Positions 1 to 24,194 of a stretch of DNA of 36,850 nucleotides are shown piece by piece. This DNA comes from Deltaproteobacteria bacterium (GTDB lineage Bacteria; Desulfobacterota; Binatia; UTPRO1), in assembly GCA_020848745.1 (NCBI GenBank), contig JADLHM010000072.1, forward strand, positions 1 through 36,850, given 5' to 3'. Positions within the stretch are counted from its first letter, which is position 1. The number at the start of each line of letters is the position of its first letter. Below the pieces are notes generated by a model, which was not told the origin of the DNA, did no database searches, and saw nothing but the letters and a program-made list of their open reading frames with translations. A program made the position numbers and the translations under genes.

Positions 1-3
1 CAT

Positions 4-50
4 GGGACTCCCCTTCGTGTGGCTTTGAGCGGCTCACGGAGGGGAGTCCC
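4..50. other. Long hairpin, 16-bp stem
   Basis: Arms 4-19 and 35-50 are complementary at 15 of 16 positions, separated by a 15-base loop. The arms begin and end with GGGACTCCCC / GGGGAGTCCC. No T-run follows on the plus strand. It may be a terminator for a gene left of the window or part of a palindromic repeat. Its function cannot be decided from this sequence. Confidence 0.5.
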
Positions 51-88
51 GTCGTTAGACTCCCGGAAATGTCAAACTTCGGCTGCCT

Positions 89-105
89 CCCCGGCATAGC
101 CGGGG
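89..105. other. Short perfect hairpin
   Basis: CCCCGGC, ATA, GCCGGGG: a perfect 7-bp stem with a 3-base loop, about 40 bases after the longer hairpin at 4-50. A GGGACTC-like string (105-111) recurs just after it, echoing the first hairpin. The rest of 106-245 shows no gene or clear signal. Confidence 0.4.
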
Positions 106-245
106 GGACTCCTGGATTGGTCTAGCCCGGCGCACGCGCCATCCGCTCCCCGGCGCCGAGCGCCGCCGCGACTTCGGCGGCTACGGAACGGCCGACGGGA
201 GAACGGCCGCCCGGAGCCGCCGCGTCCGCTCCGATCGCCGTGCGC

Positions 246-1040
246 TCAATGATGACCGTGCGCGCCGTGGTCGTGGCGGCCCGGCGCGGCGTCGGCGCCG
301 GACGGAAACGGCAGGGTCATGAGGATCCGCGCTCCCCCGAGGTCGACGTCGACCGTCACGTCGTCGTCGTCCGCACGCCGGCTCTCACCGGTGACGACGA
401 GGCCTCCCCGTTCGGGCGCCGGGGTCAGGCGACCCTCGCGCGCACGGCCGGCGCGATCACGGATCCGCGCGCTGCCGGACGCTGCGGCGACGTCGAGCGG
501 CTGCATGAAGGCGTCGAGCAGATACACGCGCACCTCGCCGCCGACGCGGCCCACGAGCTCGACGTGGCGGTCGCCGGACATGCCGATCACGCCGCCGTGC
601 GGCGCCAGATCGTGGTCGTGGGCGCGCCACACCTCCTCGACCGCGATCGAGCGCAATCCCGCCTCCTCGCCGACCCGACCCGCGACGCGCACGCGGGCGC
701 CGTGCTGCGCCAGCCACCGCGCGCGCTCGGCGGGCACTCCCCGACCGACCCGCAGCAGCCAGAGCTCGCCGGTCGCCTCGTCGCGGAGAAACCGCGTGGT
801 CCCGTCCCGCGCGACGCCGGCGAGCCGCGCGCAGAGGTCGTCCGAGCCCGCGTCGCTCCGCGGCGCGCACGGATCGGGCACGACGTCGCCGGCCGCCGTC
901 GCGCGGTCGGCCGCGTACCCGTACGCCCACGACGCCGCGACGAGCAGCGCGGCGCACGCGCTCCGTCGCAACGTACGCCCGGGTGATGGGCTCGTCATCG
1001 AGCGGCCGCCGCGGCCGCCGCGCTCTCGCATGTCGTTCAT
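246..1040 (-). CDS. Exported protein with His-rich tail, unknown function
   Basis: 264 residues. The start at 1040 is preceded by GGAG at suitable spacing; in-frame Met codons at 1031 and 998 are alternatives. Residues about 24-44 are a hydrophobic export signal ending near Ala-rich sequence. A Gly-Val-Ile-Gly-Met segment near residues 150-175, followed by a Tyr-Leu-Leu-Asp-Ala-Phe string, recalls small periplasmic domains I associate with heavy-metal efflux loci, but I cannot name a family securely. The C-terminus ends in a His-rich tail (HDHGAHGHH) that could bind metal. It lies 43 bases downstream of the beta-lactamase-kinase fusion gene on the same strand and is probably cotranscribed with it. 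Function unknown. Confidence 0.65.
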   Translation of the reverse strand: MNDMRERGGRGGRSMTSPSPGRTLRRSACAALLVAASWAYGYAADRATAAGDVVPDPCAPRSDAGSDDLCARLAGVARDGTTRFLRDEATGELWLLRVGRGVPAERARWLAQHGARVRVAGRVGEEAGLRSIAVEEVWRAHDHDLAPHGGVIGMSGDRHVELVGRVGGEVRVYLLDAFMQPLDVAAASGSARIRDRAGRAREGRLTPAPERGGLVVTGESRRADDDDVTVDVDLGGARILMTLPFPSGADAAPGRHDHGAHGHH

Positions 1041-1083
1041 CGTGATCTCCGAAAACGGGGCATGAGACGTCCGGGCGGTCTCC

Positions 1084-3015
1084 TCAGCGGACGGCGATCT
1101 TTCCGGCGTCGACGTCCGCGAGGAGGTCCGCGATACGTTGCTTCAGCAGTCGGATCTCCTTCGTGGTGAGACCGAGCTGGATCCTGTCGGGGGCGATGCG
1201 GACGCCCTTCGCCGGATCGATGGGGGCGGTACCGCGGGCGAGCCGGAAGATGCCGCTCGCGTCCCTGTTCATGTCGAACAACGCCGCGAGCCGGTCCACC
1301 TCCTCCGTCGGCAGCGCGCGCAGGCGCGCGATCGGATCGGCGCGGAGCCAGGGCACGCGGATCTCGTTCCAGTTGGGAACGAAGAAGTTCCACGGGAACC
1401 CTTCGAACGAGATGCCGTTGTCGATGGCGAAAATGCGGGGGTCGTTCGGATCCGTGGAGATGAGGAAGTTGCCTTCCCGACCGTCACGATGGTCGATGAG
1501 GTACGTGACGAGGTTCAGGTCGGCGAGATGCCGGGCGAGATGCGGATTCTCCTCGACGCGCCGCGCGATGTCCTCGTCGAGATCGTCCACGACCTCCACG
1601 TCGTTCATCCAGACCGCGAACAGTCCGAGGACACACGACGTCCTCGGGACGCTCGGGGTCGCCTTCGCGTCGGCGACGCCGTACACGTCGAGCGGGATGC
1701 AGCGAGGCACCGGCGTCGGCACGACGTAGTCCTCCTCGTCGAAGAGCCAGCGCTGGATCACGTAGGCCGCCAGCTCCTTGCGGGGCGAGTTGTTCCAGCC
1801 GTCGAGCGTCTTGTCCGGGAAGCGCTTCCACTTCACCTTCAACGTCTGTCCGTCCGCGAACCGCACGATGAACCGGGCCGCACCGGTCACACCCGCGCCC
1901 GCGCTCTTCACCTCGGTGATCTCGAAGTCGTCGAAGGCGAGCTTCAAGTCGAGCACCGATGGCGCCATCGGCCAGTTCCGCGGCAACGGCTTTCCGACCT
2001 GCTCCGGAGGTCCGAAGAGATACTGCGCCGCGCGATGGGTGAGCTGCGCGATCAGCTCGCCGCGGTAGGCGGGTGTCGCCTCGGTGAAGACGGCGAGCGC
2101 GAACTGGTGCCCGTCGGGAGCGCGCACGATGCCGGCGTCGGCGTAGTCCGGACCCCAGGTGCCGCTCTTCGCGTACACCTCGAGGCCCGGGATGCGCGCC
2201 GCGCCGCCGGCGATGCGACGCGCCAGGTGCGGCTGCTGCTTCGGGTCGCGCTTCATCCGGCGGCGGACGGTGGCGGAGTCCCCGGGCGTGAGCGCGCGAT
2301 CGGTCGCGAGCAGCCCGAGCAGCTTCGCCGTGCCGATCGCGCTCATGGCCTGGCGGTTCGGGTACTCGCCGTCGTCGCTCACGAGGCCGCCGGTGAGGGT
2401 GCGATCGCGCAAGAACTGACGATCGCGGCCGGCGAGATCGCCGCCGCCGTCGTAGGTGGGATTCACGCAATGGAGGTCGTCGATGCCGAGATCCTGGAGC
2501 CAGCGTTTCACGACCTGCCGGCGCTCGCGGTACGCACGGTACTCGTGCGGCGGCAACTCCGGTCCGGGCGTGGTCTCCGTGAGTCGTGCGAACACCTTCT
2601 GCGTCGCCTGATTGCTGCTCTCGCGGATCATCGCCTCGAGCTGCTCGTCGAGCGCGGGGTCGATGGTGAGCCGCCCTTCTTCCCGCCAGCGGTAGGCCGC
2701 CATCAGGTACACGAACTTGACGACGCTCGCCGGGTAGATCGGTCGATCGCCTCCGACGTGCGCGAGACGGGGCGGCCCGTCCGTCGGAATATCGAGCAGC
2801 GCGACGCCGATCGTGGCGCGCCGCAGCGACGGATCGGATCCGGCGAGGGTCGCCATCGTGCGATCCAGGAACGTCTGCAGCTCGGGCGCGGGACGGGTCG
2901 TCGCGAGCCAGGCTCGCGCCGCCATCGCGGCGGGCGGCCCGGTCGCGGCCGCGGCGAGGCCGCTCATCGACCCGAGGAGCAGCGCGGCAAGTGCCGATCG
3001 CGTGATCGCACGCAT
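1084..3015 (-). CDS. Exported beta-lactamase-like hydrolase fused to a kinase-like domain
   Basis: 643 residues. I start at 3015 because the next residues form a signal peptide (MRAITRSALAALLLG, Ala-rich cleavage region); the frame is open to 3132, and 3030 is an alternative start. Residues about 40-330 carry the serine beta-lactamase/DD-peptidase motifs: SVVK at 97-100 (nucleophile Ser97, Lys100), SSN at 133-135 and KSG at 283-285. Residues about 355-640 look like a protein- or lipid-kinase fold: a possible ATP-binding lysine in LKVKWK (393/395), a candidate helix-C Glu414, HRD at 509-511 with Asn516 exactly five residues after the Asp, and DNG at 532-534 in place of DFG. Both domains retain their key residues. 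What is phosphorylated, if anything, is unknown. A divergent operon of envelope enzymes lies next door. The hydrolase assignment is firm; the kinase assignment is motif-based. Confidence 0.85.
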   Translation of the reverse strand: MRAITRSALAALLLGSMSGLAAAATGPPAAMAARAWLATTRPAPELQTFLDRTMATLAGSDPSLRRATIGVALLDIPTDGPPRLAHVGGDRPIYPASVVKFVYLMAAYRWREEGRLTIDPALDEQLEAMIRESSNQATQKVFARLTETTPGPELPPHEYRAYRERRQVVKRWLQDLGIDDLHCVNPTYDGGGDLAGRDRQFLRDRTLTGGLVSDDGEYPNRQAMSAIGTAKLLGLLATDRALTPGDSATVRRRMKRDPKQQPHLARRIAGGAARIPGLEVYAKSGTWGPDYADAGIVRAPDGHQFALAVFTEATPAYRGELIAQLTHRAAQYLFGPPEQVGKPLPRNWPMAPSVLDLKLAFDDFEITEVKSAGAGVTGAARFIVRFADGQTLKVKWKRFPDKTLDGWNNSPRKELAAYVIQRWLFDEEDYVVPTPVPRCIPLDVYGVADAKATPSVPRTSCVLGLFAVWMNDVEVVDDLDEDIARRVEENPHLARHLADLNLVTYLIDHRDGREGNFLISTDPNDPRIFAIDNGISFEGFPWNFFVPNWNEIRVPWLRADPIARLRALPTEEVDRLAALFDMNRDASGIFRLARGTAPIDPAKGVRIAPDRIQLGLTTKEIRLLKQRIADLLADVDAGKIAVR

Positions 3016-3134
3016 GTGCCCCGGCACCATAGCGGGAACCCGAGGCAGCGTCAGCGCCCGACGACACGCCCGACGAGGTTTCTCACCCGCGGGATTTCCG
3101 GTACAACCCGCGCCTTTCGACGGAGGGGGCACAG
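3016..3134. promoter_or_regulatory. Divergent intergenic region of the envelope locus
   Basis: This 119-bp spacer separates the two divergent transcription units and must hold both start regions. A GGAGGGGG string sits just before the ATG at 3135 and can serve as its ribosome binding site. A TACAAC hexamer in the middle could be a plus-strand -10, but no good -35 lies upstream of it. I see no clear operator palindrome. Confidence 0.3.
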
Positions 3135-6100
3135 ATGGAACGATGGCAACGTGGGCTCGCGGCGACGGTGCTGTTGTCGGCGGCGCTCGGCCTGACGGCT
3201 CCGGGGGAGACGTTCGAGGCGCCGACGCTCTCGCCGGCTCAAGAAAAGACCTTGAAGCAGAACTTCGCGCTCTGCCTGAGCAAGCTGAAGGGTCCCTACA
3301 CGGAGAATTTCTGCCTCTGCCGCGACGGCGAGAAGCGCGCCGTACAGGCGCCGAACGGCGCCGTCCGCATCCCGTGCCCGAACCCGATCTTCTGCGCCGC
3401 GTACCGCGCGCCCTGGGCTGAAGCGCTCGCCAAGGAGCGCATGTACATCGCGAACATCTTCTCGCGCGACGCGAACCTCTGGTCGACCTTCCCGAACCAC
3501 CACGACCTCGTGCGCGGCTACGTCCTCGAGAAGTATTTCATCGAGACGCACCCCAACCACAAGCTCGCGCAGATGAAGCAGTACCGCGGGCTCTCGAGCG
3601 CCGAGGAGGAGATTCCGGCGGCGCTGGCGTTCTTCGAGAAGTACCTCGGCTCCGACGAGTTCGACGGCAACCGTCACTACGTCCTCGCCTACGAGCTGCA
3701 ACGCCGCTACTTCGCGCGCGACGACGTCGGCCAGGTGCAGAAGGTGCGCAACCTGGCGGTGCGGATCGAGCAAGCGCGCGCCGATTTCAAGCCGCTGAAG
3801 GACGCCGTCCACAACCAGGTGTCGGCGGGGTTGATCCCGGGCCTCGCCGCGTACCGCGCGAAGCTTCCCGCGGGGGCCACGCGCGACCAGCTCGACGACC
3901 TCATCCGCGAGATCCAGAAGCTGACCGTTCTCGACGAAAGCGCCCTCGCGCCGCAGGTGCAGGGGATCGCCGACCAAAAGACGCGCGACGAGTTGGCGGC
4001 GCTCCTGCCGAACACCGCGGCGGCGCCGGTCGACGCGGTGGTCGCGCTCGGCAAGATGATGGCGGCGGCGCGGCGCGCCGTCGCCGCTCGCGCCGTGCCG
4101 CCCGCCGACATGCGCCGCCTCGTCGATCTCGCGATCACCGCCGCGCAGGTCCTCCAGCACCGCGGCAGCTCGCTCCTCGCCACCGCGGGCACGACCGCGC
4201 AGCAGCACGTGGCGATGCTCGGCGCGCTCACCGAGGCCGCCTACGGCACCGGGCTGCTGAACGCGCGCGAGCGCGACGCGGCGGGCGCCGCCGTCCGCGA
4301 CCTCGGGGCGCACGCCTCCCCGGACCGCACCGAGTTCGCACGCCGGCTCCGCGAGGCCAAGCGGGTCGTCGAGTGGGCCCAGGGCAACGCCGAGCTCGGC
4401 TTCGCCGAGGTGATGGCGCCCTGGACCTTCCTCCTCCCCGACACCGCCGGCATCCGCGACGACGTGCTGCGCGGCTCGCCGCTCATCCTCTACGCCGAGG
4501 TCGCGAGCCGGCTCGACGACTTCGTCGCCGGCGGCGACCGCCCGAAGCACCGCTTCTTCGGCGCCACGGTCGAGAGCGACGTGCGAGCGCTCAACCCGGG
4601 CCTCGCCTACGGACGGCTGCGGGTCGGCCCGAAGGACCACGGCTACACGCGCGACGAGATCGTCGCGCTCACGGAGACGCCCGCCGACCTCGACCCCGCG
4701 GCCGGCATCCTCACCCAGGGCGAAGGCAACGTGCTCTCGCACGTCCAGCTCCTCGCGCGCGCGCTCGGCATTCCGAACATCGTCCTCGGCCCCAAGGCCT
4801 TCGATCGCCTCCGCATGCACGACGGCAAAGCCGTGGTGCTGATCGCGACCCCGGGCGGCCGCGTCGTCATCGAGGAGGCGACGAGCCTGTCGCCCGAGAT
4901 CCGCGAGGCGTACGCCGAGTACACGCGCAACGAGACGCGCACGGCGGCGGGAACGCTCGGCGGCGGCGCCAAGCGCCTCCACATCGACCGCGCCAAGATC
5001 GACCTCGGACCGAAGCTGCCGATCGACCTGCGGAACGTACGGCGCAAGGACTCGGGTGTCTTCTGCGGCCCGAAGGCGGCGTTCCTCGGTGAGCTGAAAT
5101 CGCTCTTCCCGGACCACGTGGCGCGCGGGATCGTGGTGCCGTTCGGCGCGTACCACGCGCACTACTCGCGGGCGACGGTCGTCGTTCCCGACGCGCTGCG
5201 CGGTCGGAGCGTCGCGACGCCGGGCGAGCCGCTCCCGGCGTTCGTCGAGCGCACCTACCGGACGTTCTTTGACGAGCTCGCGCCGTCGGGAAAGAGCGAG
5301 CGCGAGCTCTCGGAGTGGATCGAGCCGCGCCTCGAGGTGATCCGCTCCACCATCCGCGCCACGCCGCTCGACCCGGCGCTCCGCCAGGCGATCCGCGACG
5401 GGCTCGCGAAGAACGGCCTGCTGCGCGGCGGCGACGACACGGTCGGCTGCTTCGTGCGGAGCGACACCAACGTCGAGGACCTCGACAACTTCAACGGCGC
5501 CGGGCTGAACCTCACGGTCTTCAACCGGCGCACGCTCGACGACATCTACGCCGGTCTCACCGAGGTGTGGGCGTCGCCGTTCCAGTTCCGCTCGTTCTCG
5601 TGGCGGCAGACCCTCATCGACGACCCGATCTGGGTGCTCTCGTCGGTCGTCATCCTCGAGTCGGTGCCGTCGGAGAAGTCGGGCGTGCTCGTCACCGCCG
5701 ACGTGAACGGCGGCGAGCCCGGGAAGATGCTGGTCGCGACGTCGGAAGGCGTCGGCGGCGCGGTCGACGGGACGTCGGCGGAGACGCTCCTCTGGTCGCC
5801 CCACGGCGTCGAGCTCCTCACCCTCTTCAAGTCGCCGTGGCGGAACGCGCTCGACGTCGACGGCGGCAGCAAGATCGTCCCCTCGACCGGACGCGACACC
5901 GTCCTCGAGCCGGCCGAGCTCGAGCAACTCGTCGCGGCCGGCAAGAAGATCACCGACGAGTTCACGCCGGTTCGGAACGCCGCCGGGAAGCCGAAGCCCT
6001 GGGACATAGAGTTCGGATTCACCAACGGCAAGCTCTGGCTCTTCCAGTGCCGTCCGTTCCTCGGCAACGACGAGCTCAAGAACATCCCGGCCCTGGCGGC

Positions 6101-6164
6101 GCTCGACAGCCCGCCGAGCGGCGCCCGCACGGCCAAGCTCTCGCTCGCGCAGGTCCTGAGATGA
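3135..6164 (+). CDS. Exported dikinase-like protein (His domain then C-terminal ATP-grasp)
   Basis: 1009 residues. Residues 1-22 are a signal peptide. Five cysteines between residues 47 and 87 (47, 60, 62, 81, 87) fit disulfides outside the cytoplasm. Residues about 90-500 are largely helical and unrecognised. A phosphohistidine domain of the PEP-utiliser family follows: GEGNVLSH with His536 in the catalytic position, then ARALGIPN. The C-terminal part is the pyruvate-phosphate-dikinase-type ATP-grasp domain, with VRSDTNVEDL around Arg775 and a closing DIEFGF...QCRPF block near 953-973. His domain before ATP-grasp is the order in alpha-glucan water dikinase, the reverse of PEP synthase. The RSD-x-N-x-EDL motif also resembles that family. 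No starch-binding module is evident. First gene of an operon with two L,D-transpeptidase-like genes; its stop overlaps the next start. The substrate is unknown. Confidence 0.85.
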   Translation: MERWQRGLAATVLLSAALGLTAPGETFEAPTLSPAQEKTLKQNFALCLSKLKGPYTENFCLCRDGEKRAVQAPNGAVRIPCPNPIFCAAYRAPWAEALAKERMYIANIFSRDANLWSTFPNHHDLVRGYVLEKYFIETHPNHKLAQMKQYRGLSSAEEEIPAALAFFEKYLGSDEFDGNRHYVLAYELQRRYFARDDVGQVQKVRNLAVRIEQARADFKPLKDAVHNQVSAGLIPGLAAYRAKLPAGATRDQLDDLIREIQKLTVLDESALAPQVQGIADQKTRDELAALLPNTAAAPVDAVVALGKMMAAARRAVAARAVPPADMRRLVDLAITAAQVLQHRGSSLLATAGTTAQQHVAMLGALTEAAYGTGLLNARERDAAGAAVRDLGAHASPDRTEFARRLREAKRVVEWAQGNAELGFAEVMAPWTFLLPDTAGIRDDVLRGSPLILYAEVASRLDDFVAGGDRPKHRFFGATVESDVRALNPGLAYGRLRVGPKDHGYTRDEIVALTETPADLDPAAGILTQGEGNVLSHVQLLARALGIPNIVLGPKAFDRLRMHDGKAVVLIATPGGRVVIEEATSLSPEIREAYAEYTRNETRTAAGTLGGGAKRLHIDRAKIDLGPKLPIDLRNVRRKDSGVFCGPKAAFLGELKSLFPDHVARGIVVPFGAYHAHYSRATVVVPDALRGRSVATPGEPLPAFVERTYRTFFDELAPSGKSERELSEWIEPRLEVIRSTIRATPLDPALRQAIRDGLAKNGLLRGGDDTVGCFVRSDTNVEDLDNFNGAGLNLTVFNRRTLDDIYAGLTEVWASPFQFRSFSWRQTLIDDPIWVLSSVVILESVPSEKSGVLVTADVNGGEPGKMLVATSEGVGGAVDGTSAETLLWSPHGVELLTLFKSPWRNALDVDGGSKIVPSTGRDTVLEPAELEQLVAAGKKITDEFTPVRNAAGKPKPWDIEFGFTNGKLWLFQCRPFLGNDELKNIPALAALDSPPSGARTAKLSLAQVLR

Positions 6165-7834
6165 GGGGGCGCGCGCGGCCGACCGCGGTGCGGATCGGCG
6201 TGTGGACGCGGAGCCTCGTCGCGATCGCAACCGTCGCGGCCGGGCTCGCGGCGCCGCTACGCGCGCACGCAGCACTCGCGGCGGGCGACACCACCTGGGA
6301 CGGCAGCGAGCCCCCGACCGGCATCTATTTCCATTGGTACGAGCCGTCGTTCTACGCCGGCTTCGCGCCCCGGACACAAGACCCGAGCCGGGTCCACATC
6401 GAGCTCGCACGCGGCAATCAGGTGCGGGTGACGGTCGTCCTCGGCGACGCCGAGCTCGCCGCCTACCTCGGCGACCTGCAGGAGCGCCGCGCGGTCGTCC
6501 AGGAGCTCGTGGACCGGAAGATCCTCACCCTCAGCACGAACCGCGAGTGGGAGCGCTTCACGAAGGCGCTCGACGACGCCGGCGTCGGGGCGGCGCTCGG
6601 CGCCCGCGCGAGCACGAGCCCCGAAGCGTGGCGCGCGAAGAGCCTCGCGGTGATGAAGACGTTGAATCCCGAGCGCGTGTTCTCGATCACGATGCCGCTC
6701 GCCGGGGTCGCGGCGCGCTGGCGGCCCGTGGTCGCCGCCATCGACGGCACGGACCCGGCGCAGCGCCTCGACGCCGCAAACGCCGTCCTCCCCGGCCGGA
6801 TCGTGCTCGAGCAGCTGCCGCCGCCGGTGGACAGCGCGCTCGGCCGCTGCATCGACCCGGCGCGCGGCGGCAAGGACCTCGTCCCCGCCTTCGAGCTCTG
6901 CGTGAAGAACTTCGTCGAGCTCGCGAGCGGATCCCATTACCGCGTGCCGAACGATGCCGTCGTCGCCGACGAGTTCACGGCGATCTATCCCGCCGGCACG
7001 GTCGAGGGAACGACGACCTACAAGGGCGAGAAGCTCCCCGACTTCGGCGTGACCGGCGTCTGGCCGCTCATCCGCCGCACGCACGGCCGCGGCATCCTCG
7101 GCATGGTCGACTACCTCTCGCCGAATCCGGGCTACGGCTACATCGTGATGCTGCCCTACCAATACGCGGGCGGAATCACCTACAACGCGTTCCACAACGC
7201 CGGCGTGCGCTGCCAGCTGAACAGCACGCCCTTCCTGCCGAGCGCCTGGCGCAAGGTCGCGGGCGAGCGCAGCGGCAAGCCGTACGAGAACCTGTGGATC
7301 GTCGGCCGCGGCCCGACGTCGCACGGCTGCACGCGCCTGCCGTCGGGGCACATGAGCGAGCTCCGCCAGATCGTCCCGTCGGAATCGGACACGCTCCTGC
7401 GGGTGCAGACCCACCGCAACCTGCCGGGCTGCTACGACGCGTTCGACATCGACGGCGACGGCGCGCCCGAAGTGATGGGCGTGCAGTACTACCTCGCGTA
7501 CCGCAGCAACGAGCACACGCCGGTGAAGGCGTGGGTGAGCAACCGGCGCGAGCCCTTCTACCGCTGGCTCTACGGCGACAACGTGGTGCTCGGCGCCGTC
7601 GGCGCGACGCGCCTGAAGGACGTACCGGTCTGCCGCTTCGTCGGCAGGAAGGCGTCGGAGCGCACGGTACTCCACGACCTGCCGCTCCACGAGGCTCCAT
7701 ACCAGCCGGAGCAGATCCAGTTCTTCCGCGCCAAGGTCGCGCCCGAGAGCACGCCGGGATTCGAGCTGAACCGCGAGTTGCGTAAGGTCGGCGCCGGGCA
7801 CACGCTCGACCGCTCGCGTCTGCTGCTCCAGTAA
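6161..7834 (+). CDS. L,D-transpeptidase-like exported protein, copy 1
   Basis: 557 residues. The ATG at 6161 overlaps the preceding TGA (ATGA), so translation is probably coupled to the dikinase gene. A signal peptide covers about residues 1-37 (cleavage near AHA-A). The catalytic signature SHGCTR occurs at 387-392 with Cys390 as nucleophile, as in YkuD-type L,D-transpeptidases, which cross-link or anchor to peptidoglycan. The likely partner His345 lies about 45 residues upstream, more than the usual 14-17, so the domain has an insertion or a divergent fold. After it comes FDIDGDGAPEVMG (428-440), which resembles a calcium-binding DxDGD loop. The protein is strongly similar to its downstream neighbour along the whole length (shared FAPRTQDP near 68-75, EAPYQPE near 511-517). 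The family call rests on the Cys motif; the substrate is unknown. Confidence 0.8.
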   Translation: MRGRARPTAVRIGVWTRSLVAIATVAAGLAAPLRAHAALAAGDTTWDGSEPPTGIYFHWYEPSFYAGFAPRTQDPSRVHIELARGNQVRVTVVLGDAELAAYLGDLQERRAVVQELVDRKILTLSTNREWERFTKALDDAGVGAALGARASTSPEAWRAKSLAVMKTLNPERVFSITMPLAGVAARWRPVVAAIDGTDPAQRLDAANAVLPGRIVLEQLPPPVDSALGRCIDPARGGKDLVPAFELCVKNFVELASGSHYRVPNDAVVADEFTAIYPAGTVEGTTTYKGEKLPDFGVTGVWPLIRRTHGRGILGMVDYLSPNPGYGYIVMLPYQYAGGITYNAFHNAGVRCQLNSTPFLPSAWRKVAGERSGKPYENLWIVGRGPTSHGCTRLPSGHMSELRQIVPSESDTLLRVQTHRNLPGCYDAFDIDGDGAPEVMGVQYYLAYRSNEHTPVKAWVSNRREPFYRWLYGDNVVLGAVGATRLKDVPVCRFVGRKASERTVLHDLPLHEAPYQPEQIQFFRAKVAPESTPGFELNRELRKVGAGHTLDRSRLLLQ

Positions 7835-7858
7835 CGACCCGCCGCCGAAGGAGGATCC

Positions 7859-9586
7859 ATGCGAACGACGACGAGCATCGTGACGGCGCTGGCCCTGCTT
7901 TCCGCGGCGGTCGGCGCGGCGCCGGCCGCCGCGAAGGACTTCGCGGCGCCCGCGCTCGTCGGCGACCGCGCCGAGCCCGGCCTGATGGTCCAGGAGCCGC
8001 CCCGCTACGGCGTCTTCTACGACGCGCCCGAGCCGTCCTTCTACACGGGATTCGCGCCGCGCACGCAGGACCCCGCGAGCCTCCACGTCCACCTCGGACG
8101 CGGCAACCAGCTGCGCGTGACGGAGGTGCTCTCCGAGGCGGTCGTCCGCGAGTACGCGCGCGACCTCGCCGAGCGTCGCCGCGCCTATCGCGCGCTCGTC
8201 GACGAGGGCCGGCTGCAGCTCACCCAGAACACCGCGTTCGAGGACTTCGAGCGCCGGCTCGACGCGGTCGGCCTCGAACGCATGACGCGCGAGGAAGCGA
8301 CGCTCGCGCCCGACGCGCTCCGCGCCCGCAATCTCGACCTCATCGAGACGCTCAATCCCGGGCGCGTCTTCCGGATCGCGATCCCCGTGCGGAAGCTCGT
8401 CGCCGACTGGGTGCGCGAGCTCGACCGCATCGCCGCCGGCGCACGCGCCCGTCTCGACGCGGGCCGGAAGCTCGATGTCCTGAACGCCCTCCTGCCGACC
8501 CGCCTCTGGCTCGCCGAGATGCCGGCGGACGCCGCCCCGGCGCTCGACGAGCTCGTGCGCCGCGCCCCCGCGAATGCCGACGACGCGGCCGGCATCGATG
8601 CCCTCGTGCCGGCATATACGGCGCTCCTGACGCGCGTCGGCGACGACCGCTACCCGGTGCGGGACGGCGTCGTGCGCTTCGCCGAGTTCACCGCGATCTA
8701 CCCGGTTGGCAGCGTCGCCGCGTACACGACGTGGCGCGGGCGGCCGATCCCGCAGTACCCGACGCCCGGACGCCGCGCCCTCACCAACCACCAGCGCTCG
8801 CTCGTCGCCGACCACATCCCGATCGACGACTCGTACAGCTGGTCGCCCTGGCTGCCGTACATGCACGTCACGCCGACCATGCACAACGCGATCCACACGC
8901 CGTGGTGGAAGATGGGCCCCGGCGACGCGAAGTTCCTACCGGCATCGTGGCAGAAGGTCACCGAGGGCAGCCGCGACGGGGCGCCTTTCAAGAAGCTCTG
9001 GCTGCTCTCGCGCGGCCCCATGTCGCACGGCTGCACCCACCTGAACACGGGCCACATCGCGGAGCTCCGCCAGATCCTCCCCGCCGACGGCGACCGCCTC
9101 TACGACGTCGACGTGTTCCTCACCCGCTCCGAGGACTACGACGTCTTCGACATCGACGGCGACCTCGTGCCCGAGGTGATGGGCGTCCGCTACTTCATCG
9201 CGTACTCGCTGACCTCCGGAAAGCCGGATCGCCTGCGGGTCAAGAACGAGCGCCGCGCCTTCTACGACTGGCTCTACGGCGGCGACCTCCAGTGGGAGGG
9301 CGACCGGGGCGTCTTCCGCGACGCGCGCGACGCGCGCTTCGTCGGGCGCGACGCGCGCGAAGGCCGGAGCTACGCGCGCGTCGCGCTGCGCGAGGCGCCC
9401 TATCAACCCGAGACCGTGCAGTTCTACCGCATGGTCGACATCCCGTTCGCGCGCGCGCTCCGCCAGGTGGGTCTGCACCAGCGCGCACCCGGAGCACTCG
9501 ACGGCCGGCAGGCGTCGAACGTGCGGGTGATGCGCGTCACCGCCGAGGACGGCGCCACGCCGCACCCGCGCCGGCGCGCCCGCTGA
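7859..9586 (+). CDS. L,D-transpeptidase-like exported protein, copy 2
   Basis: 575 residues, 24 bases after copy 1, with a strong ribosome binding site (AAGGAGG) five bases before the ATG. Residues 1-25 form a signal peptide ending AAA. It is a tandem paralogue of copy 1: the N-terminal PEPSFYTGFAPRTQDP block, the central NAIH segment, SHGCTH with Cys392, the FDIDGD loop and the EAPYQPE block are all shared. The residue after Cys-Thr is His instead of the Arg found in copy 1 and in most YkuD enzymes, so the two copies may differ in specificity. The last 30 residues are basic and probably disordered. It is presumably periplasmic, acting on peptidoglycan stem peptides. It is the last gene of the operon; a GC hairpin follows. 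Confidence 0.8.
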   Translation: MRTTTSIVTALALLSAAVGAAPAAAKDFAAPALVGDRAEPGLMVQEPPRYGVFYDAPEPSFYTGFAPRTQDPASLHVHLGRGNQLRVTEVLSEAVVREYARDLAERRRAYRALVDEGRLQLTQNTAFEDFERRLDAVGLERMTREEATLAPDALRARNLDLIETLNPGRVFRIAIPVRKLVADWVRELDRIAAGARARLDAGRKLDVLNALLPTRLWLAEMPADAAPALDELVRRAPANADDAAGIDALVPAYTALLTRVGDDRYPVRDGVVRFAEFTAIYPVGSVAAYTTWRGRPIPQYPTPGRRALTNHQRSLVADHIPIDDSYSWSPWLPYMHVTPTMHNAIHTPWWKMGPGDAKFLPASWQKVTEGSRDGAPFKKLWLLSRGPMSHGCTHLNTGHIAELRQILPADGDRLYDVDVFLTRSEDYDVFDIDGDLVPEVMGVRYFIAYSLTSGKPDRLRVKNERRAFYDWLYGGDLQWEGDRGVFRDARDARFVGRDAREGRSYARVALREAPYQPETVQFYRMVDIPFARALRQVGLHQRAPGALDGRQASNVRVMRVTAEDGATPHPRRRAR

Positions 9587-9593
9587 GCGAAGC

Positions 9594-9647
9594 GCGCGAC
9601 CGCGCCGCAGCGCGCGCGCCGGGTCGTCCGGTGCGGCGCGATCGCGC
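9594..9647 (+). terminator. Hairpin after the envelope operon
   Basis: Arms 9594-9609 and 9632-9647 pair at 15 of 16 positions around a 22-base loop, eight bases after the stop codon at 9586. No T-tract follows, so it may be a barrier to 3' decay instead of an intrinsic terminator. Its position fits the end of the three-gene operon. Confidence 0.45.
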
Positions 9648-9722
9648 GGGCCCGCGCCGCCTACTCGCAGCGTTGCCCTCGGCGCCGCGAAGCCGCTAGC
9701 ACGGCCCCGTGAGACCGGCCCC

Positions 9723-10919
9723 GTGACCGCCGCCGATCGCCGCCTCGTCGCGCTCCTCGGAGGCGCGATCTTCTTCGAGGGCTACGGACGCTCGCTCGTC
9801 ACCGTGGCGCTCGCCTACGTCGGACGGGACCTGGGCGCATCGTCCGACGCGCTCTCCTACGCGCTCGCCGCGATCGCGCTCGGCTCGCTCGGCGTGCTCG
9901 CGCTCGGCCCGATCGCGGATCGCATCGGCCGGCGGCGGCTCCTCCTCGCGAGCACCGTGCTCTTCGCGCTCCTCGGTGCGGGAACCGCGCTCGCCGGATC
10001 GCTCGCCGGCCTCGTCGCCTGGCAGCTCGCGGCGCGCGTCTTCCAGGAGGGCGCGCTCTTCACCGCGGCCGTGCTCGCCGCCGAGGAGACGTCGCCCGCG
10101 AGCCGCGCCGCCGCGCAGGGCATGCTCGGCACCATGAACGCGCTCGGCGCGGGATTCGCGGCGCTCCTCCTCGCTGCGATCGGGGTCGTGCCGGGTGGCT
10201 GGCGCGGCCTCTGCCTGATGAGCCTGGTCCCGCTCGCGCTCGTGCCCCTGCTGCGCCGCCGCGTCCCGGAGAGCCGCCATTGGCTCGCGCATCGCGGGCC
10301 GCGGATCGCGCTGCCGCCGAGGGCCTGGCGCGGTCGCGTCGCCGCGACGCTCGTCGTGGTCGCGCTCGCGATGAGCTACGACGTCGCCGCCTTCGCCTTC
10401 GCGACCTACGTCCCCGTCGAGCGCCACGGCTGGAGCGCGGCGGAGGTGAGCACGATGTTCATCGGCGCCGGCTTGCTCGGGCTCCCGGGCTGGTCGGTCG
10501 GCGGCATGCTCGCCGACCGCCACGGACGGCGGCCGATCGGCGTCCTCTTCCTCCTCGGCCTCACGATCGCCGAGCTCGTCTTCTTCCTCGGTGGGCGCCG
10601 CGCGCTCTGGCCGGGCTTCGCGGCGATGGTTTTCTTCCAGGGGGGCAAGATGACCATCATCCGCGCCTGGGCCGCGGAGCTCTTCCCGACCAGCTTCCGC
10701 GGCGCCGCCGCGGGATGGCTCACCGCCGCGGGCGCCGTCGGCGGCATGGGCGGGCTCGCGATCGCGGGGGCGCTCGCCGCGAGCGTCGGCGGCATCCACG
10801 CCGCGCTCGCGATCGTCGCGAGCGCCGGCGTATTCGCGGCCGCCGCGGTCCTGGCATGGCTTCCCGAAACGCGCGGCATCGACCTCGGCCGACCCACGGC
10901 CGATCGGGTCGCCGAGTAG
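9723..10919 (+). CDS. MFS transporter, sugar/organic-acid porter type
   Basis: 398 residues, GTG start. About twelve hydrophobic segments are visible. The loop 2-3 signature DRIGRRR and its second-half repeat ADRHGRRP mark a major facilitator. PESRHWL in the middle and LPETRGIDL at the C-terminus are typical of the sugar-porter and aromatic-acid branches. It would move a small solute by proton-coupled secondary transport across the inner membrane. No substrate can be assigned, because no catabolic genes lie beside it. The start codon lacks a clear ribosome binding site. A hairpin at 10932-10957 follows, so the gene is probably monocistronic. Confidence 0.85.
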   Translation: MTAADRRLVALLGGAIFFEGYGRSLVTVALAYVGRDLGASSDALSYALAAIALGSLGVLALGPIADRIGRRRLLLASTVLFALLGAGTALAGSLAGLVAWQLAARVFQEGALFTAAVLAAEETSPASRAAAQGMLGTMNALGAGFAALLLAAIGVVPGGWRGLCLMSLVPLALVPLLRRRVPESRHWLAHRGPRIALPPRAWRGRVAATLVVVALAMSYDVAAFAFATYVPVERHGWSAAEVSTMFIGAGLLGLPGWSVGGMLADRHGRRPIGVLFLLGLTIAELVFFLGGRRALWPGFAAMVFFQGGKMTIIRAWAAELFPTSFRGAAAGWLTAAGAVGGMGGLAIAGALAASVGGIHAALAIVASAGVFAAAAVLAWLPETRGIDLGRPTADRVAE

Positions 10920-10931
10920 GCGCCATCTCCC

Positions 10932-10957
10932 GCGCCGTGCCGCAGGCGGCACAGCGC
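10932..10957 (+). terminator. GC hairpin after the MFS gene
   Basis: Stem GCGC-C-GTGCCG against CGGCAC-A-GCGC with one C/A mismatch and a four-base loop, 13 bases after the stop codon. There is no T-run, so termination is plausible but not shown. Confidence 0.4.
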
Positions 10958-11066
10958 AACGCGGGTCCGGCGCCGGCGAGCACCTCGACGGTTTCGTGGC
11001 GTTCATGTCCGCGCATCCAACGCGTGCGGCGTCGGCATCGCAACCGATACCTGCTACAGATGCGCG

Positions 11067-11321
11067 ATGGACGAGCCGCGCGGTGTCGAGGTGCCCTACA
11101 CCGCCCTCTCCGAAGAAGCCCTCGGCGGGCTCATCGAAGAGTTCGTGACCCGCGCCGGCACCGACTACGGCGCCGTCGAGCGGACGCTCGCAGAGAAGGT
11201 CGCTGACGTCCGACGACAGCTCGCGCGCGGCGAGGCCGCCATCGTGTACGACCCCGAGACCGAGACGGCGAACGTCGTCGTCGACCCGCGCCGCGCCGGT
11301 GCCGCCAAGACGAGCCCCTGA
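11067..11321 (+). CDS. yheU: YheU family protein (UPF0270)
   Basis: 84 residues. The family core is almost complete: VPYTALSEEAL at the start, LIEEFVTRAGTDYG in the middle, and VRRQLARGEA then DPETETANVVV at the end. The family averages about 70-80 residues, so the length is normal. Its biochemical role is not established. It is cytoplasmic and probably monocistronic, between the MFS gene and a small hairpin. The family call is secure; the function is unknown. Confidence 0.88.
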   Translation: MDEPRGVEVPYTALSEEALGGLIEEFVTRAGTDYGAVERTLAEKVADVRRQLARGEAAIVYDPETETANVVVDPRRAGAAKTSP

Positions 11322-11322
11322 C

Positions 11323-11339
11323 CCGCGCTTCATGCGCGG
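11323..11339 (+). terminator. Short hairpin after yheU
   Basis: CCGCGC, TTCAT, GCGCGG: a perfect 6-bp stem starting two bases after the yheU stop. It is short and has no T-tract, so it is only a weak terminator candidate. Confidence 0.3.
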
Positions 11340-11404
11340 CCGGTCGGAGAGCGCGAACGCGGCCTGGCGCAAGATCACAACCCCGAACACGGGCCCGAGC
11401 CGGC

Positions 11405-11635
11405 TCAGCCGGCGGCGAGCGTCCGCCGGCCGGCCTCGGTCAGCGTGAACGTGCCGTCGGCGAAGGCGACGAGCCCGTCGCCGACCAGGCCCTCCATGAG
11501 CTCCGAGAACGCCTGGTGCCCGGCCTGATAGAAGAGGAGGCTGTGGGTATGGAGCGCGCGGATCGGGAGCGAGCCGCCCTGCTTGGCGAGGAAGGCGAGG
11601 AGACCGCGGCGCGCGGCCGGCACGTCGGTGGCCAT
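11405..11635 (-). CDS. Small winged-helix-like protein
   Basis: 76 residues. Two helical blocks (residues about 8-35 and 38-52) are followed by a GLVAFADGTFTLTEAG segment. This pattern, helix then beta-hairpin then a TEAGR ending, is common in winged-helix transcription factors of the MarR/PadR style, but the protein is shorter than those families and I do not recognise a named one. The start ATG at 11635 lacks a strong ribosome binding site. It is divergent from the Cys-rich lipoprotein gene, with 118 bp between the two starts. It could be a small DNA-binding protein; function uncertain. Confidence 0.6.
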   Translation of the reverse strand: MATDVPAARRGLLAFLAKQGGSLPIRALHTHSLLFYQAGHQAFSELMEGLVGDGLVAFADGTFTLTEAGRRTLAAG

Positions 11636-11753
11636 GGCGCCGTCTTAGCAACACCGCGCATGCCTCGCACGCGAGGTGCTCCACGCGGCCGAGGGCGGGT
11701 AGCATCCGCGCGCGGATTCTCGTAGCGTGGCCCGCCAAGGAGGGTTCCACCGC

Positions 11754-12125
11754 ATGCGATTGTCGAAGACCTTGATCGTCGTTCCCGTGCTCGCGCTGCT
11801 CGCGATGGGCTGCGCACCGCACCGCCACGGTCGACCCGGCTGCCCCCTGGGCGCGGCGTCGGCGTGCGCCGCCGACGGGTGCGTCTACAAGAGCCGCTGC
11901 TTCTCGAACGGCGCCGTGCGCTCGAACGACGGCGTCTGCCAGTCGTGCAACGGCGGCCGCTGGGTCGAAGCGAGCGGCTGCAAGGACCATCACGGCCACG
12001 ACGGCTGTTGCGGCCACCCCGGCTGTTCCGGCCCCAAGGATTGTCCGCTCCTGAAGGGCAAGAATCCTGGTCCGGGCGGGCGGGACGGCGGGCCGGGCGG
12101 TCCGCCCCCCTGCCACAAACGCTGA
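11754..12125 (+). CDS. Small Cys/His-rich lipoprotein
   Basis: 123 residues. I start at 11754 because AAGGAGGG lies eight bases upstream and the next residues are a lipoprotein signal; the open frame from 11727 is longer. The lipobox is LAMGC with Cys20 as the lipidation site. The mature part has about a dozen cysteines, including a CVYKSRCFSNGAV segment that faintly recalls the DUF1496/YnjH pattern, then a His/Cys cluster (HHGHDGCCGHPGC) and a Gly/Pro-rich tail. The cluster suggests metal binding or disulfide knots in the periplasm, but neither is shown. A strong hairpin ends the transcript at 12147-12184. Confidence 0.75.
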   Translation: MRLSKTLIVVPVLALLAMGCAPHRHGRPGCPLGAASACAADGCVYKSRCFSNGAVRSNDGVCQSCNGGRWVEASGCKDHHGHDGCCGHPGCSGPKDCPLLKGKNPGPGGRDGGPGGPPPCHKR

Positions 12126-12209: not shown

Positions 12210-13754
12210 CTATTCGAGCGGATCCCAGGCGGTCGCGACGACGCGCGCCACGAACGTCGCTCCGCCGAGCCCGTCGGGCTTGAAGATCGCGGCCTCGGCC
12301 CAGGCGAGCTGGTCCAGCAGCGCGCACGTGAAGCCCGCGTGCCCGATGATCGCCGTGTTGGTCGCCGCGGCCGGTACGGACCCGATGAGCGCGTAGGAGG
12401 CCGCGCACCGCCCCGGCTCGTCGTGGACGAAGTACGTGACGTCGGGATCGAGCTCGATCGTCGGCCCGAAGTCCATGAGCTCGGCGGTCGTGACGTTGCG
12501 GCAGAACTCGCTGCTGATCACGCGCCCGACCGGGATGCCGAGCGCGTCGAAGGCCTGGCCGATGGTCGTCGCCTGCGTGACGCCCGTGGCGTTCAGCTGG
12601 CGCGCGGTCGCGGTGGCGCAGTTAGTATCGCAGCTCTTCCACCAGTTCGGCGACATCGTCGTCGCCGCGGTCCCGAGCGCGAGGTTGTCCTGGCAGACGT
12701 CGGCCGCGGCGTGCCGCCAATGGAGCACGTAACCGCCGGCGCGCAGCACCTGCGCGAGGGTCGGTACGAGCGTCGTCCGACTGCCCGTCGACTCGCACAC
12801 ACCGCCGGCGGTACAGCCGAACGCCGCGTAGTGATAGGTGCGGGGCGTGCCCGACGTCGTCGGCAGCAATTCCGAGAGCGGGTCGGACGCGCCCGACGCG
12901 GCGCCGAAGAACACGAGCGCCGCGGCGACATCGGTTGGATCGGCGGGCGCCTCGTTCAAACGGCGCAGCACGCGGACGTGGGTGTTCCCCGAGCCCGGAT
13001 CGGGCGACGTCCAGGTGAGCGCGGCGTGATCGGCGTCGACGGCCACGGCCAGATCCGCCGGTGCCCCGCCGACGCTCGGCGTCGCGGTCGCGCTCACCGT
13101 CGGCGTGGCGGTCGCCGTCGGCGTGGCGGTCGCCGTCGGCGACGGCGTCGGCGACGCGGCGCCGTCGATGATGCGCCCGGCCGCATTCGCCACGAACAGA
13201 TCGACGATCGCCGCGACCGCGGCCGCATCGCCGGCCGCCATGCACCCCGATCGCCTGTCCGCGCGGGCGAACGCCGCGAGGAAGCGCTCGGCGGCCTTCT
13301 CCAAGCACGCCGGCGCGGGTGGCTCCTCGCGTCGTACGCCGACCCGGCGACACGCCAGCGCGTTCGACGCCTTCTGACCCGCCACGCGGAGCTTGGCCGC
13401 CCCGCACCGCCCCGGCGATTGCGTGCCGAGAAGGGCCGTGAGCAGCTCGTCGATGGCGGCGTCGACCGCGCCCTCGTCTTCGACGAACGGGCAGCCGCCG
13501 CGCGCCTCGAGGCGTGCGAAGGCAGCGTCGAGGCGGCTGTCCGCCGATGCGTGGCACCCGGCGCGCACCGGCTTTCCCGTTTCGAGCGCTCGGGCCTGGC
13601 AGGAGACGTGCGCAGCGACGGCACGTGCCGTGGCGTCGAGCTTTCCCGCGACACATCTCTGCGCGGCGGTGGCCGCGGGGCTCGTACTCGCGGCGAAGGC
13701 TGCGACCACGAGCGCAACCACGGTCGACACGGCGACTCGAAGCGACGAGGCCAT
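12210..13754 (-). CDS. Exported multidomain protein: two 4-Cys repeats, FnIII-like, histidine-phosphatase-like
   Basis: 514 residues, start 13754 (TAGGAG upstream, then a signal peptide ending near residue 31). Residues 33-193 are two tandem repeats of about 83 residues, each with four cysteines at identical spacing 18/15/21 (Cys34, 52, 67, 88 and Cys117, 135, 150, 171). A Thr-Pro/Ala-Thr linker covers about 201-227, then an FnIII-like beta domain (about 231-330). The C-terminal part is a histidine-phosphatase-type domain: Arg347-His348 replacing the RHG motif as RHA, Arg419 in SSEFCR, and His472 in IGHAGF. These match the catalytic His, Arg and second His of the superfamily, so activity is possible. 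Probably surface or periplasmic. It lies 10 bases after the SDR gene on the same strand. Substrate unknown. Confidence 0.8.
   Translation of the reverse strand: MASSLRVAVSTVVALVVAAFAASTSPAATAAQRCVAGKLDATARAVAAHVSCQARALETGKPVRAGCHASADSRLDAAFARLEARGGCPFVEDEGAVDAAIDELLTALLGTQSPGRCGAAKLRVAGQKASNALACRRVGVRREEPPAPACLEKAAERFLAAFARADRRSGCMAAGDAAAVAAIVDLFVANAAGRIIDGAASPTPSPTATATPTATATPTVSATATPSVGGAPADLAVAVDADHAALTWTSPDPGSGNTHVRVLRRLNEAPADPTDVAAALVFFGAASGASDPLSELLPTTSGTPRTYHYAAFGCTAGGVCESTGSRTTLVPTLAQVLRAGGYVLHWRHAAADVCQDNLALGTAATTMSPNWWKSCDTNCATATARQLNATGVTQATTIGQAFDALGIPVGRVISSEFCRNVTTAELMDFGPTIELDPDVTYFVHDEPGRCAASYALIGSVPAAATNTAIIGHAGFTCALLDQLAWAEAAIFKPDGLGGATFVARVVATAWDPLE
13099..13134. repeat. 18-bp tandem repeat encoding Thr-Pro/Ala linker
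   Basis: Two perfect 18-bp units (GTCGGCGTGGCGGTCGCC), with a degenerate continuation to about 13155, lie inside the exported histidine-phosphatase-like gene and encode its ATATPT linker. Copy number could vary by slippage and change linker length without shifting frame, because the unit is a multiple of three. Confidence 0.6.
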
Positions 13755-18897: not shown

Positions 18898-20433
18898 ATG
18901 CGCGCCTTCGCCGCCCTTCGCCGCTCCATCCTCCACCGCCTCGCGCCCCTCGACCTCCGGCGCGGCGAGGGCCGCACGGCGTCGCTCATGTTCGCCGCCG
19001 TGTTCTCCATCATGTGCGCCTACTACATGGTGAAGCCGCTGCGCGAAGGTTGGATCGCGGTGTCGGCGGTCGGCGGCCTCTCACGCGTCGAGATGAAGGC
19101 CTACTCGAGCCTCGCACAGAGCCTGCTCCTCCTCGGGATCGTCGGCGCGTACGCCCGGCTCGCGGCCCGCTGCACGGCGCGCACGCTGCTGCGCCGCTCG
19201 GCGTTCGCGTGCGCCGTGGCACTCGTCATGTTCTGGATCGCGCAGCCCGGCTTCCTCCTCACGACGGTTCCCGGTCTCGGCGTCGTCTTCTACCTCTGGG
19301 TCGGCATGTTCGGCGTGTTCGTGGTGGCGCAGTTCTGGACCTTCGCGACCGACCTCTACGGCGACGACCGCGGTCGCCGCCTACTGCCGCTGATCGCGAT
19401 CGGCGGGACCTCGGGCGCAGCCGCGGGCTCGTGGCTCTACGGCGCGCTCGCCGGACTCGGCCCGACCGGGGCGCACGCGATCCTGCTCTGCGCGCTCGTG
19501 CCCCTCCTCGCCGCGACCGCGCTCGCGCACGCGGCCGCGGGCTCGCTCGCCGACCTCGGCCGCGCGCCGCGCCGCGAGGGCGCCGCGAGCCTCCGCCGGG
19601 TCGTGAGCGACCGCTTCGTGCTCGCGGCCGGCATGCTCGCCCTCCTCCTCAGCTGGGCGACGACGAACGGCGAGAACCTGCTCTTCCAGGTCGTGCAGGA
19701 CGGCGTCGCCCACGCGACCACGGCCTCCGGCGTCGACGGCGCCGCCGCGCTCGAGCACGCGCGCGCCGCGACGACCGCCTTCTACGGCGACTTCTACCTC
19801 TGGACGAACGTCGCGGCCCTCGTCGTACAGCTCCTCGTGACGTCGCGCCTGCTCGCCCGCGGCGGTCTGGCGGCGATCATCTTCGTGCTGCCGCTCCTCG
19901 CCCTCCTGGCCTCGGCGGTCGCCGCGCTCGCGCCGGTGCTCGCGATCCTCAAGTGGGTGAAGATCGCCGAACAGGCCACCGACTACTCGCTGAACCATAC
20001 GGCGCGCCAAGTCCTCTGGCTCCCCGCGAGCGCCGAGACGAAGGTCGAGAGCAAGCCGACCGTCGACTCGTTGTTCGTACGCCTCGGCGACGGGCTCGCG
20101 GCCCTCACGGTGCTCGCGAGCGGCCACCTCGGCGGCCACACAACCGAGGCCCTGATCGTGGTGAACGTCGTGCTCGCGGCGCTCTGGCTGGTGGCCGCCG
20201 GCGTCGTCGTCCGCGAGCACGGCCGGCTCGTCGCGCTGCGCGCCGCGGAAGCCGCGGCCGCCGTGACGCCAGCGCTCCGGCGCGCCGCCCGCCGTCTCGT
20301 CCGTCGCGCGGCGCGCGCCCTCCGCACGATCCTGGCCGCGCCGACCGCGCTCTGGGACGGCGTCGCCGCGAAGCGGCTCGAGCTCTTGCCGATCGGCCGC
20401 GGCCACCCGCCGCCCGTCGCCCTCGCCGCGTAG
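18898..20433 (+). CDS. ATP/ADP translocase-like membrane protein (Npt/NTT type)
   Basis: 511 residues from the ATG at 18898; the frame is open from 18820 but that extension is not hydrophobic. Eleven to twelve membrane segments are visible. YYMVKPLREGW early on, and the block EQATDYSLNHTARQVLWLP followed by a Lys-rich TKVESKPTVDSLFVRLGDG loop, match the NTT branch known from plastids and intracellular bacteria and also present in free-living bacteria. Parasite members exchange ATP for ADP; the substrate in free-living bacteria is generally not known. The last 70 residues are basic and cytoplasmic-like. Monocistronic by appearance. The family call is good; nucleotide transport is not proven here. 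Confidence 0.8.
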   Translation: MRAFAALRRSILHRLAPLDLRRGEGRTASLMFAAVFSIMCAYYMVKPLREGWIAVSAVGGLSRVEMKAYSSLAQSLLLLGIVGAYARLAARCTARTLLRRSAFACAVALVMFWIAQPGFLLTTVPGLGVVFYLWVGMFGVFVVAQFWTFATDLYGDDRGRRLLPLIAIGGTSGAAAGSWLYGALAGLGPTGAHAILLCALVPLLAATALAHAAAGSLADLGRAPRREGAASLRRVVSDRFVLAAGMLALLLSWATTNGENLLFQVVQDGVAHATTASGVDGAAALEHARAATTAFYGDFYLWTNVAALVVQLLVTSRLLARGGLAAIIFVLPLLALLASAVAALAPVLAILKWVKIAEQATDYSLNHTARQVLWLPASAETKVESKPTVDSLFVRLGDGLAALTVLASGHLGGHTTEALIVVNVVLAALWLVAAGVVVREHGRLVALRAAEAAAAVTPALRRAARRLVRRAARALRTILAAPTALWDGVAAKRLELLPIGRGHPPPVALAA

Positions 20434-23833: not shown

Positions 23834-23906
<73 letters not shown>

Positions 23907-23981
23907 ACGCGCTTCGGTTGGCGAGAGCGCGCGAATCTAGACGATTCGTCGCGCGCTGTCACGCGTTGGTGAAGTGGAAAG

Positions 23982-24055: not shown

Positions 24056-24092
24056 ACGTGTCGCTGCTCGTCTTCGATGCGTCCTATCAGAG

Positions 24093-24166: not shown

Positions 24167-24194
24167 AAGCCGGAAGCGGAAACGTGCCAGCCAA

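Follow-up and report, generated by a model that had tools for sequence, protein, structure and literature searches.

Exported GWD-order dikinases cluster with acyl-enzymes and NTT-family transporters in several bacterial phyla: a candidate ATP-fuelled module for envelope modification

This report concerns a cluster of five adjacent genes, centred on a dikinase with an export signal, at one end of a 36,850-nucleotide stretch of DNA (the window), which is the whole of contig JADLHM010000072.1 (C72) of a Deltaproteobacteria bacterium genome of 4.88 Mb in 155 contigs (GCA_020848745.1). The closest named relatives of this genome are 'Deltaproteobacteria' SJ588 and 'Polyangiaceae' UTPRO1. We call this and similar genomes Binatia-type, on the assumption that UTPRO1, the group to which it is assigned, belongs in Binatota/Binatia. 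On the reverse strand lie a gene for a His-tailed exported protein (246-1040) and a fusion gene (1084-3015), of which positions 1981-3015 encode a signal peptide and a class-A-like serine hydrolase half (PF13354, with motifs SxxK, SxN and KSG) and positions 1084-1980 a Fam20/PI4K-II-like kinase half, recognised by the fold match of its AF2 model. A divergent spacer of 119 bases, read from the sequence (3016-3134), separates the fusion gene from an operon on the forward strand, which encodes the 1009-residue dikinase (3135-6164; assigned by PF01326, an AF2 model and invariant catalytic residues) and two exported acyl-enzymes that resemble L,D-transpeptidases (LDT-like): A (6161-7834), with a conserved H ... 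SHGC motif, and its paralogue B (7859-9586), which adjoins the dikinase in relatives too. The start codon of LDT-like A overlaps the dikinase stop in an ATGA at 6161-6164, and 24 bases (7835-7858) lie between A and B. The coordinates and order of the five genes, together with the overlap, the gap and the spacer, had been proposed in a first-pass annotation, and each was confirmed on the sequence.

In the dikinase, Pfam places PPDK_N (PF01326) at residues 728-976, with 79 bits and above its cut-off, and PF00391 at residues 518-557, with 20.5 bits and under its cut-off of 23.1. The AF2 model (pLDDT 88.7) agrees, giving a signal peptide, an all-helical part (about 34-465), a phospho-His domain (about 466-585) and an ATP domain (about 626-980). 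The order is therefore the GWD type that had been claimed for it, with the phospho-His domain before a C-terminal ATP domain. The catalytic H536 (window 4740-4742), K647, R775, E959, Q971 and R973 are invariant across 63 dikinase sequences; so are C62 and C81, between which a disulfide is conceivable. The modelled ATP domain superposes on that of the AMPPNP-bound rifampin phosphotransferase (Z 34.9, root-mean-square deviation 2.0 over 311 residues). No PEP/pyruvate barrel is matched in Pfam or in the model, the protein stopping shortly after the ATP domain, and Pfam gives no starch-binding module at E<1, residues 34-465 being nearly all helical in the model. The enzyme thus shares with GWD and PWD the domain order and an SHV motif at the catalytic histidine, which we take to be the motif of GWD as well, but it differs from them in its helical N-terminal part, in the absence of a detected starch-binding module, in being exported and in being bacterial and clustered with acyl-enzymes. 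With rifampin phosphotransferase and PEP synthase it shares a closely superposing ATP domain whose residues are retained, but its domain order is reversed, the pyruvate barrel is missing and it is exported. A protein search of a plasmid collection gave only partial matches, which covered 24-36% of the query and were in almost every case labelled PEP synthase.

Export signals had been assigned to all five genes, and their N-termini, those of the His-tailed protein and the fusion included, are signal-like by eye. Of 73 N-termini scored in the dikinase family 68 are signal-like, against 6 of 23 in a control set of cytosolic PPS-type open reading frames (ORFs) carrying the dikinase motif and scored in the same permissive way. 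The partner families gave 39/40 for BLA, the family of the serine hydrolase, 38/42 for BLA227, a second serine hydrolase family, and 42/44 for the LDT-like proteins, in each case with the favourable start codon and with no control set of their own.

The two LDT-like proteins are more elusive. In the Pfam scan A reaches YkuD (PF03734) only at E=0.13 (13.3 bits against a cut-off of 23.4) and B, which is about 37% identical to A, has no YkuD match; none of 32 members of the family reaches the YkuD profile at E<0.01, and a profile search of solved structures gave no match for the family. However, H345, S387, G389 and C390 are invariant and H388 nearly so, and the family profile, compared with a set of 32 true YkuD sequences, gives a short local match with a pairwise E of 3e-4, where five shuffles gave 0.009-0.2. 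Neighbour genes 63-67% identical to A occur in other genera. Thus the description of these proteins as L,D-transpeptidase-like stood as to the H ... SHGC motif and the local match, and failed as to Pfam membership of YkuD; the label is the weakest of our domain calls and is used here for putative enzymes. They share the catalytic motif of the YkuD L,D-transpeptidases, but fall under the Pfam cut-off, are about 550 amino acids long and occur in pairs. Firmer is the serine hydrolase half of the fusion, with 53 bits to PF13354 (cut-off 22) and SxxK, SxN and KSG conserved in its family. It has the catalytic motifs of the class-A-like serine hydrolases but fails the equivalog score for class A beta-lactamases (NF033103, 18.4 bits against 200), and in relatives it is a stand-alone gene.

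The kinase half has no Pfam match. Its AF2 model (pLDDT 85) matches Hydra Fam20 best (5xoo, Z 16.9, 250 residues, root-mean-square deviation 3.7), and also Fam20C and PI4K-II (4hnd at E 1e-7), and residues K50, E69, D166, N171 and D187, in the numbering of the half, are invariant in 12 homologues. A search of its sequence profile against solved structures stayed at chance level, with a Vps34-class PI3-kinase at E 0.067 and tyrosyl-tRNA synthetases ranked higher. The half therefore shares the Fam20/PI4K-II fold with the Fam20 secretory-pathway kinases, but differs from them in having yielded no significant sequence match, in belonging to a bacterial envelope and in being joined to, or lying beside, a serine hydrolase and NTT transporter genes. 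A bacterial protein distantly related to Fam20 kinases, CotH, has been described before (PMC7821199). Within the class the kinase half is present in 9 of 145 genomes, 8 of which are also dikinase genomes (p = 3e-7). In G788 and G781, whose clusters are complete, the kinase has an exported gene of its own, flanked by NTT-HEAT and the serine hydrolase, so that the fusion in the window joins two neighbour genes; in G003, G760 and G777 it adjoins NTT genes at a place where there is no dikinase gene. Both halves of what the first-pass annotation had called a beta-lactamase-kinase fusion are thus real, but the fusion is a lineage-specific joining of two genes, and we rejected the kinase as the core of the system, since among the 76 dikinase loci it is confined to one genus and in the class to the 9 genomes just given. 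At another locus (L136, 7026-8321) a protein whose start looks metallophosphatase-like by eye lies between a TLC transporter and a Fam20-like lipoprotein kinase.

The dikinase loci come from a scan of one genome per species (84,980 species), of which the best 80 of at least 576 relatives were kept, giving 76 loci in Binatia-type, Desulfobacterota, Gammaproteobacteria, Flavobacteriia, Lewinella-type, Mariprofundus and other genomes. In two congeners of the source genome (L009 and L010) the dikinase, the fusion gene and the LDT-like pair stand in the same order as here. The His-tailed protein, which has no match in Pfam or NCBIfam, has an 80% identical homologue in L009 and no match in L010, so that the proposed five-gene system is a conserved set in which the His-tailed protein is an accessory, present in one of the two congeners examined. 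Upstream, both congeners also carry a TLC-type transporter and a 1070-residue protein in which a cNMP domain accompanies a transporter-like membrane part. In the source genome contig C72 stops just short of the place of these genes, and orthologues of 84-89% identity constitute a small contig, C6. The first-pass annotation was right in its set of exported phosphotransferases and acyl-enzymes, but overlooked this nucleotide transporter partner because the contig breaks there; as no sequence overlap between the window and C6 was found, the transporter linkage in the source genome rests on the two congeners. Palindromic GC-rich repeats lie at both contig ends (window 1-120, and 1-140 of C6 in the source genome, G000, locus L169) and are the likely cause of an assembly break inside the cluster.

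When the ORFs of the loci were clustered blind to annotation, the most widespread families were two dikinase clades, BLA (43 loci) and NTT (43), followed by BLA227 (42), the LDT-like proteins (29) and a second NTT-HEAT group (11). Combining ORF families with tblastn over 74 dikinase loci gave BLA at 46, BLA227 at 43, NTT at 42 and LDT-like genes at 24; many of the contigs are short, and of the 33 dikinase loci flanked by 7 kb or more on each side 25 have an NTT. LDT-like genes occur at 24 of 27 clade-1 loci and BLA227 at 43 of 47 clade-2 loci, while no LDT-like gene was found near a clade-2 dikinase. The two families substitute for one another beside the dikinase, and the four-base overlap with the next gene recurs in clade 1 (LDT-like) and in clade 2 (BLA227). 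The typical order in Flavobacteriia is dikinase> BLA227> <NTT-HEAT <BLA and in Desulfobacterota <LDT-like <5'-nucleotidase dikinase> TLC> LDT-like> NTT-HEAT-cNMP>, and the divergent arrangement of hydrolase and dikinase is repeated at many clade-1 loci. The neighbourhood is conserved across genomes; independent occurrence of the genes without a shared neighbourhood was looked for and not found, and the return of these families beside the dikinase in dozens of genomes rules out a chance arrangement. Three components make up the conserved core: a dikinase of GWD order with an export signal, acyl-enzymes that are likewise exported (class-A-like serine hydrolases and, in the clade of the window, two LDT-like proteins) and NTT-family transporters. 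At one locus (L044) a clade-2 dikinase (2-2785, reverse strand) and a clade-1 dikinase (7794-10871, forward strand) lie about 5 kb apart with an NTT between them.

The cluster NTTs match PF03219 at E 3.9e-23. A TLC protein of locus L041 (12412-13800) scores 82.4 bits against a cut-off of 21 and finds the solved ADP/ATP carriers 9j3n and 9j3j at a best E of 1e-12, and cluster NTTs and solved carriers have the motif KS..Y.LF..KE..YIPL....KGKA.ID in common. The transporters of congener L010 reach 17.8 and a TLC/NTT-like paralogue inside the window (18898-20433, forward strand; 52% identical to the C6 transporter and with a counterpart in congener L054) 18.3 bits, both under the cut-off. The cluster transporters belong to the NTT/TLC family or close to it, fusion architectures included (PMC5381601); NTT-HEAT and NTT-HEAT-cNBD fusions were reported there in 2017 in free-living bacteria, with no proven function. 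cNMP domains recur on the NTT-HEAT proteins, and at locus L042 a protein with a metallo-beta-lactamase fold and a cyclic-nucleotide-binding part (9643-11856) lies directly upstream of a clade-2 dikinase.

The association holds at the level of whole genomes, where dikinase presence was called with a profile (A2) of the region upstream of the ATP domain. The dikinase is present in 39 of 199 Flavobacteriaceae genomes, each time at E<1e-190, the rest having no match at E<=1e-10, and PF03219 is found in 38 genomes, every one of them among the 39 (Fisher p = 4e-40); in the remaining dikinase genome (G334) an NTT-HEAT gene of 503 bits adjoins the dikinase. In 34 of the 38 the pair is no more than 15 kb apart, in one it is 2 Mb apart and in three the two are on different contigs. 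Similarly, among 229 Gammaproteobacteria all 22 genomes with the dikinase have PF03219, and so do 17 of the 207 without it (p = 2e-20); in several of those 17 the match is canonical and very strong. Of 31 dikinase genomes checked, 27 have PF03219 above cut-off, against 0 of 14 control genomes, and three of the other four (G000, G227 and G322, the last being locus L110) have NTT or NTT-HEAT by homology. It might be argued that the dikinase in fact stays in the cytosol as a PEP-synthase-like enzyme, its signal peptide mispredicted and its neighbours unrelated, as signals were predicted by a simple score; against such an artefact stand the control comparison, a gene order recurrent in several phyla and the two probabilities just given, and we have rejected it as highly improbable.

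We propose that these proteins probably form a periplasmic, ATP-fuelled envelope-modification module. Inner-membrane NTT carriers would exchange cytosolic ATP for spent adenine nucleotide, so placing ATP in the periplasm. The exported dikinase, by the chemistry of the PPDK/GWD/rifampin phosphotransferase superfamily, whose catalytic residues are intact in it, would transfer a phosphate of ATP to H536 with release of AMP and Pi, and the phospho-His domain might then swivel to an acceptor held by the N-terminal helical domain. In some Binatia-type genomes the second exported enzyme, the Fam20-like kinase, could add ordinary phosphate transfer. The co-encoded acyl-enzymes may act on the envelope polymer that is phosphorylated, cleaving its amide bonds or forming them anew; the likeliest substrate would be the stem peptides of peptidoglycan, or else a peptide or glycan linked to these. 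An exported enzyme that requires ATP, together with a nearly constant carrier family of the ATP/ADP type, makes delivery of ATP to the periplasm the simplest account. A 5'-nucleotidase adjoins the dikinase at three loci (L041 6683-8413, L060 7263-8807 and L067 8024-9523), and fits AMP disposal because the dikinase chemistry makes AMP and Pi. The association, the predicted export, the folds of the dikinase and the kinase and the catalytic residues are computed; the direction of the carriers, the acceptor and the product we infer.

The traffic could run the other way, with exported enzymes using environmental ATP, or with the dikinase running backwards (phospho-donor + AMP + Pi -> ATP) and the NTT importing ATP or breakdown products. 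The physiology of bacterial NTTs known so far is import by intracellular species (PMC5381601); dikinase reactions such as that of PPDK are reversible in principle, and the same 5'-nucleotidases lie nearby. Yet the hosts include many cultured free-living bacteria that synthesise ATP themselves, we know of no phospho-donor in the periplasm, and inward flow leaves the coupling to serine hydrolases and LDT-like proteins, and a Fam20-like kinase beside NTT genes, unexplained; we consider both import and the reverse reaction unlikely. Slightly less likely still is that the NTT serves the envelope operon otherwise, for instance in NAD or nucleotide-sugar traffic, with the dikinase using another phosphate donor. 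Such a cargo has a precedent in the NAD carried by a bacterial NTT characterised outside the main subfamily (PMC5381601), but the ATP domain retains its nucleotide-binding residues and superposes on an AMPPNP-bound enzyme, and the Fam20-like kinase, whose ATP-dependent fold is unrelated to that of the dikinase, is likewise associated with NTT genes.

As to what is modified, the first-pass annotation had suggested phosphorylation of peptidoglycan or a wall-linked glycan and anchoring of the product; in the full form of this suggestion peptidoglycan itself would carry the phosphate, and L,D-transpeptidases would cross-link or anchor what results. Predicted export of all parts, serine hydrolases with motifs of the D-peptidase type and the LDT-like motif are consistent with this. 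The interchange of LDT-like and BLA227 genes beside the dikinase in the two clades suggests that both acyl-enzymes would work on one envelope polymer, for which we infer peptidoglycan peptides as the first candidate. In its full form we hold the suggestion to be doubtful: YkuD fails at the Pfam level, the class A beta-lactamase equivalog score is not reached, no LDT-like genes were found in the surroundings of clade-2 dikinases, and nothing in the analysis identifies the acceptor.

Several points weigh against the ATP-fuelled module itself. Our export scoring is home-made and picks the most favourable start codon; the PF03219 scores are modest; and the co-occurrence tests carry no correction for phylogeny, although they hold separately in two groups. 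One of the 31 dikinase genomes checked (Desulfopila, G302) has no detected NTT. No acceptor is known for the dikinase, and neither Foldseek nor VIA-align, run with the whole model, gave a relative of its helical domain, though one may still exist. The L,D-transpeptidase identity of the pair is weak, and both the direction of flow and the substrate proposed for the cluster NTTs are putative. Nearly all characterised NTTs, moreover, are in another subfamily, and one outside it carries NAD (PMC5381601).

To our knowledge the bacterial periplasm is generally held to be free of ATP, and envelope chemistry therefore to work on pre-activated substrates. A module joining carriers of the ATP/ADP type to exported phosphotransferases would, if true, overturn this for whole lineages, and the pairing of the two in several bacterial phyla suggests that ATP may be moved into the envelope to modify a cell-wall component. 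In the eukaryotic secretory lumen a kinase outside the cytosol works on ATP delivered by a carrier. On balance, and a little less firmly than for the module, we lean to the view that many Gram-negatives keep an ATP-supplied periplasm, in which NTTs export ATP for exported dikinases and Fam20-like kinases phosphorylating envelope polymers, and with a similar leaning we see in it the bacterial counterpart of that ATP-fed lumen. The NTT and NTT-HEAT genes found in free-living bacteria would thereby gain the role that PMC5381601 left open; that paper, in the part available, draws no link such as we find here between NTTs and exported ATP-dependent enzymes. It would also predict a new phosphate modification of the envelope, testable in culturable Flavobacteriia and Gammaproteobacteria. 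We found in the open-access literature no description of the module and no link of NTT-HEAT to dikinases or exported kinases, a description elsewhere being possible; as far as can be told, the parts are known folds and the system itself is new, with a candidate function.

Some other features of the loci are recorded here. One family, judged by eye from its representative to resemble a cation/dicarboxylate symporter, occurs at 11 loci, mostly near the dikinase (L051, L053, L055, L057, L069, L070, L071, L072, L079, L082 and the window); its member in the window (22968-23744) is possibly unrelated. An Rfam scan gave tRNAs and nothing else, with four tRNA genes clustered at 23834-24268 on the reverse strand. 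Also on the reverse strand, at 12210-13754, is a gene for a protein with a long low-complexity linker, SPTPSPTATATPT, and congener L009 has a gene in the same place.

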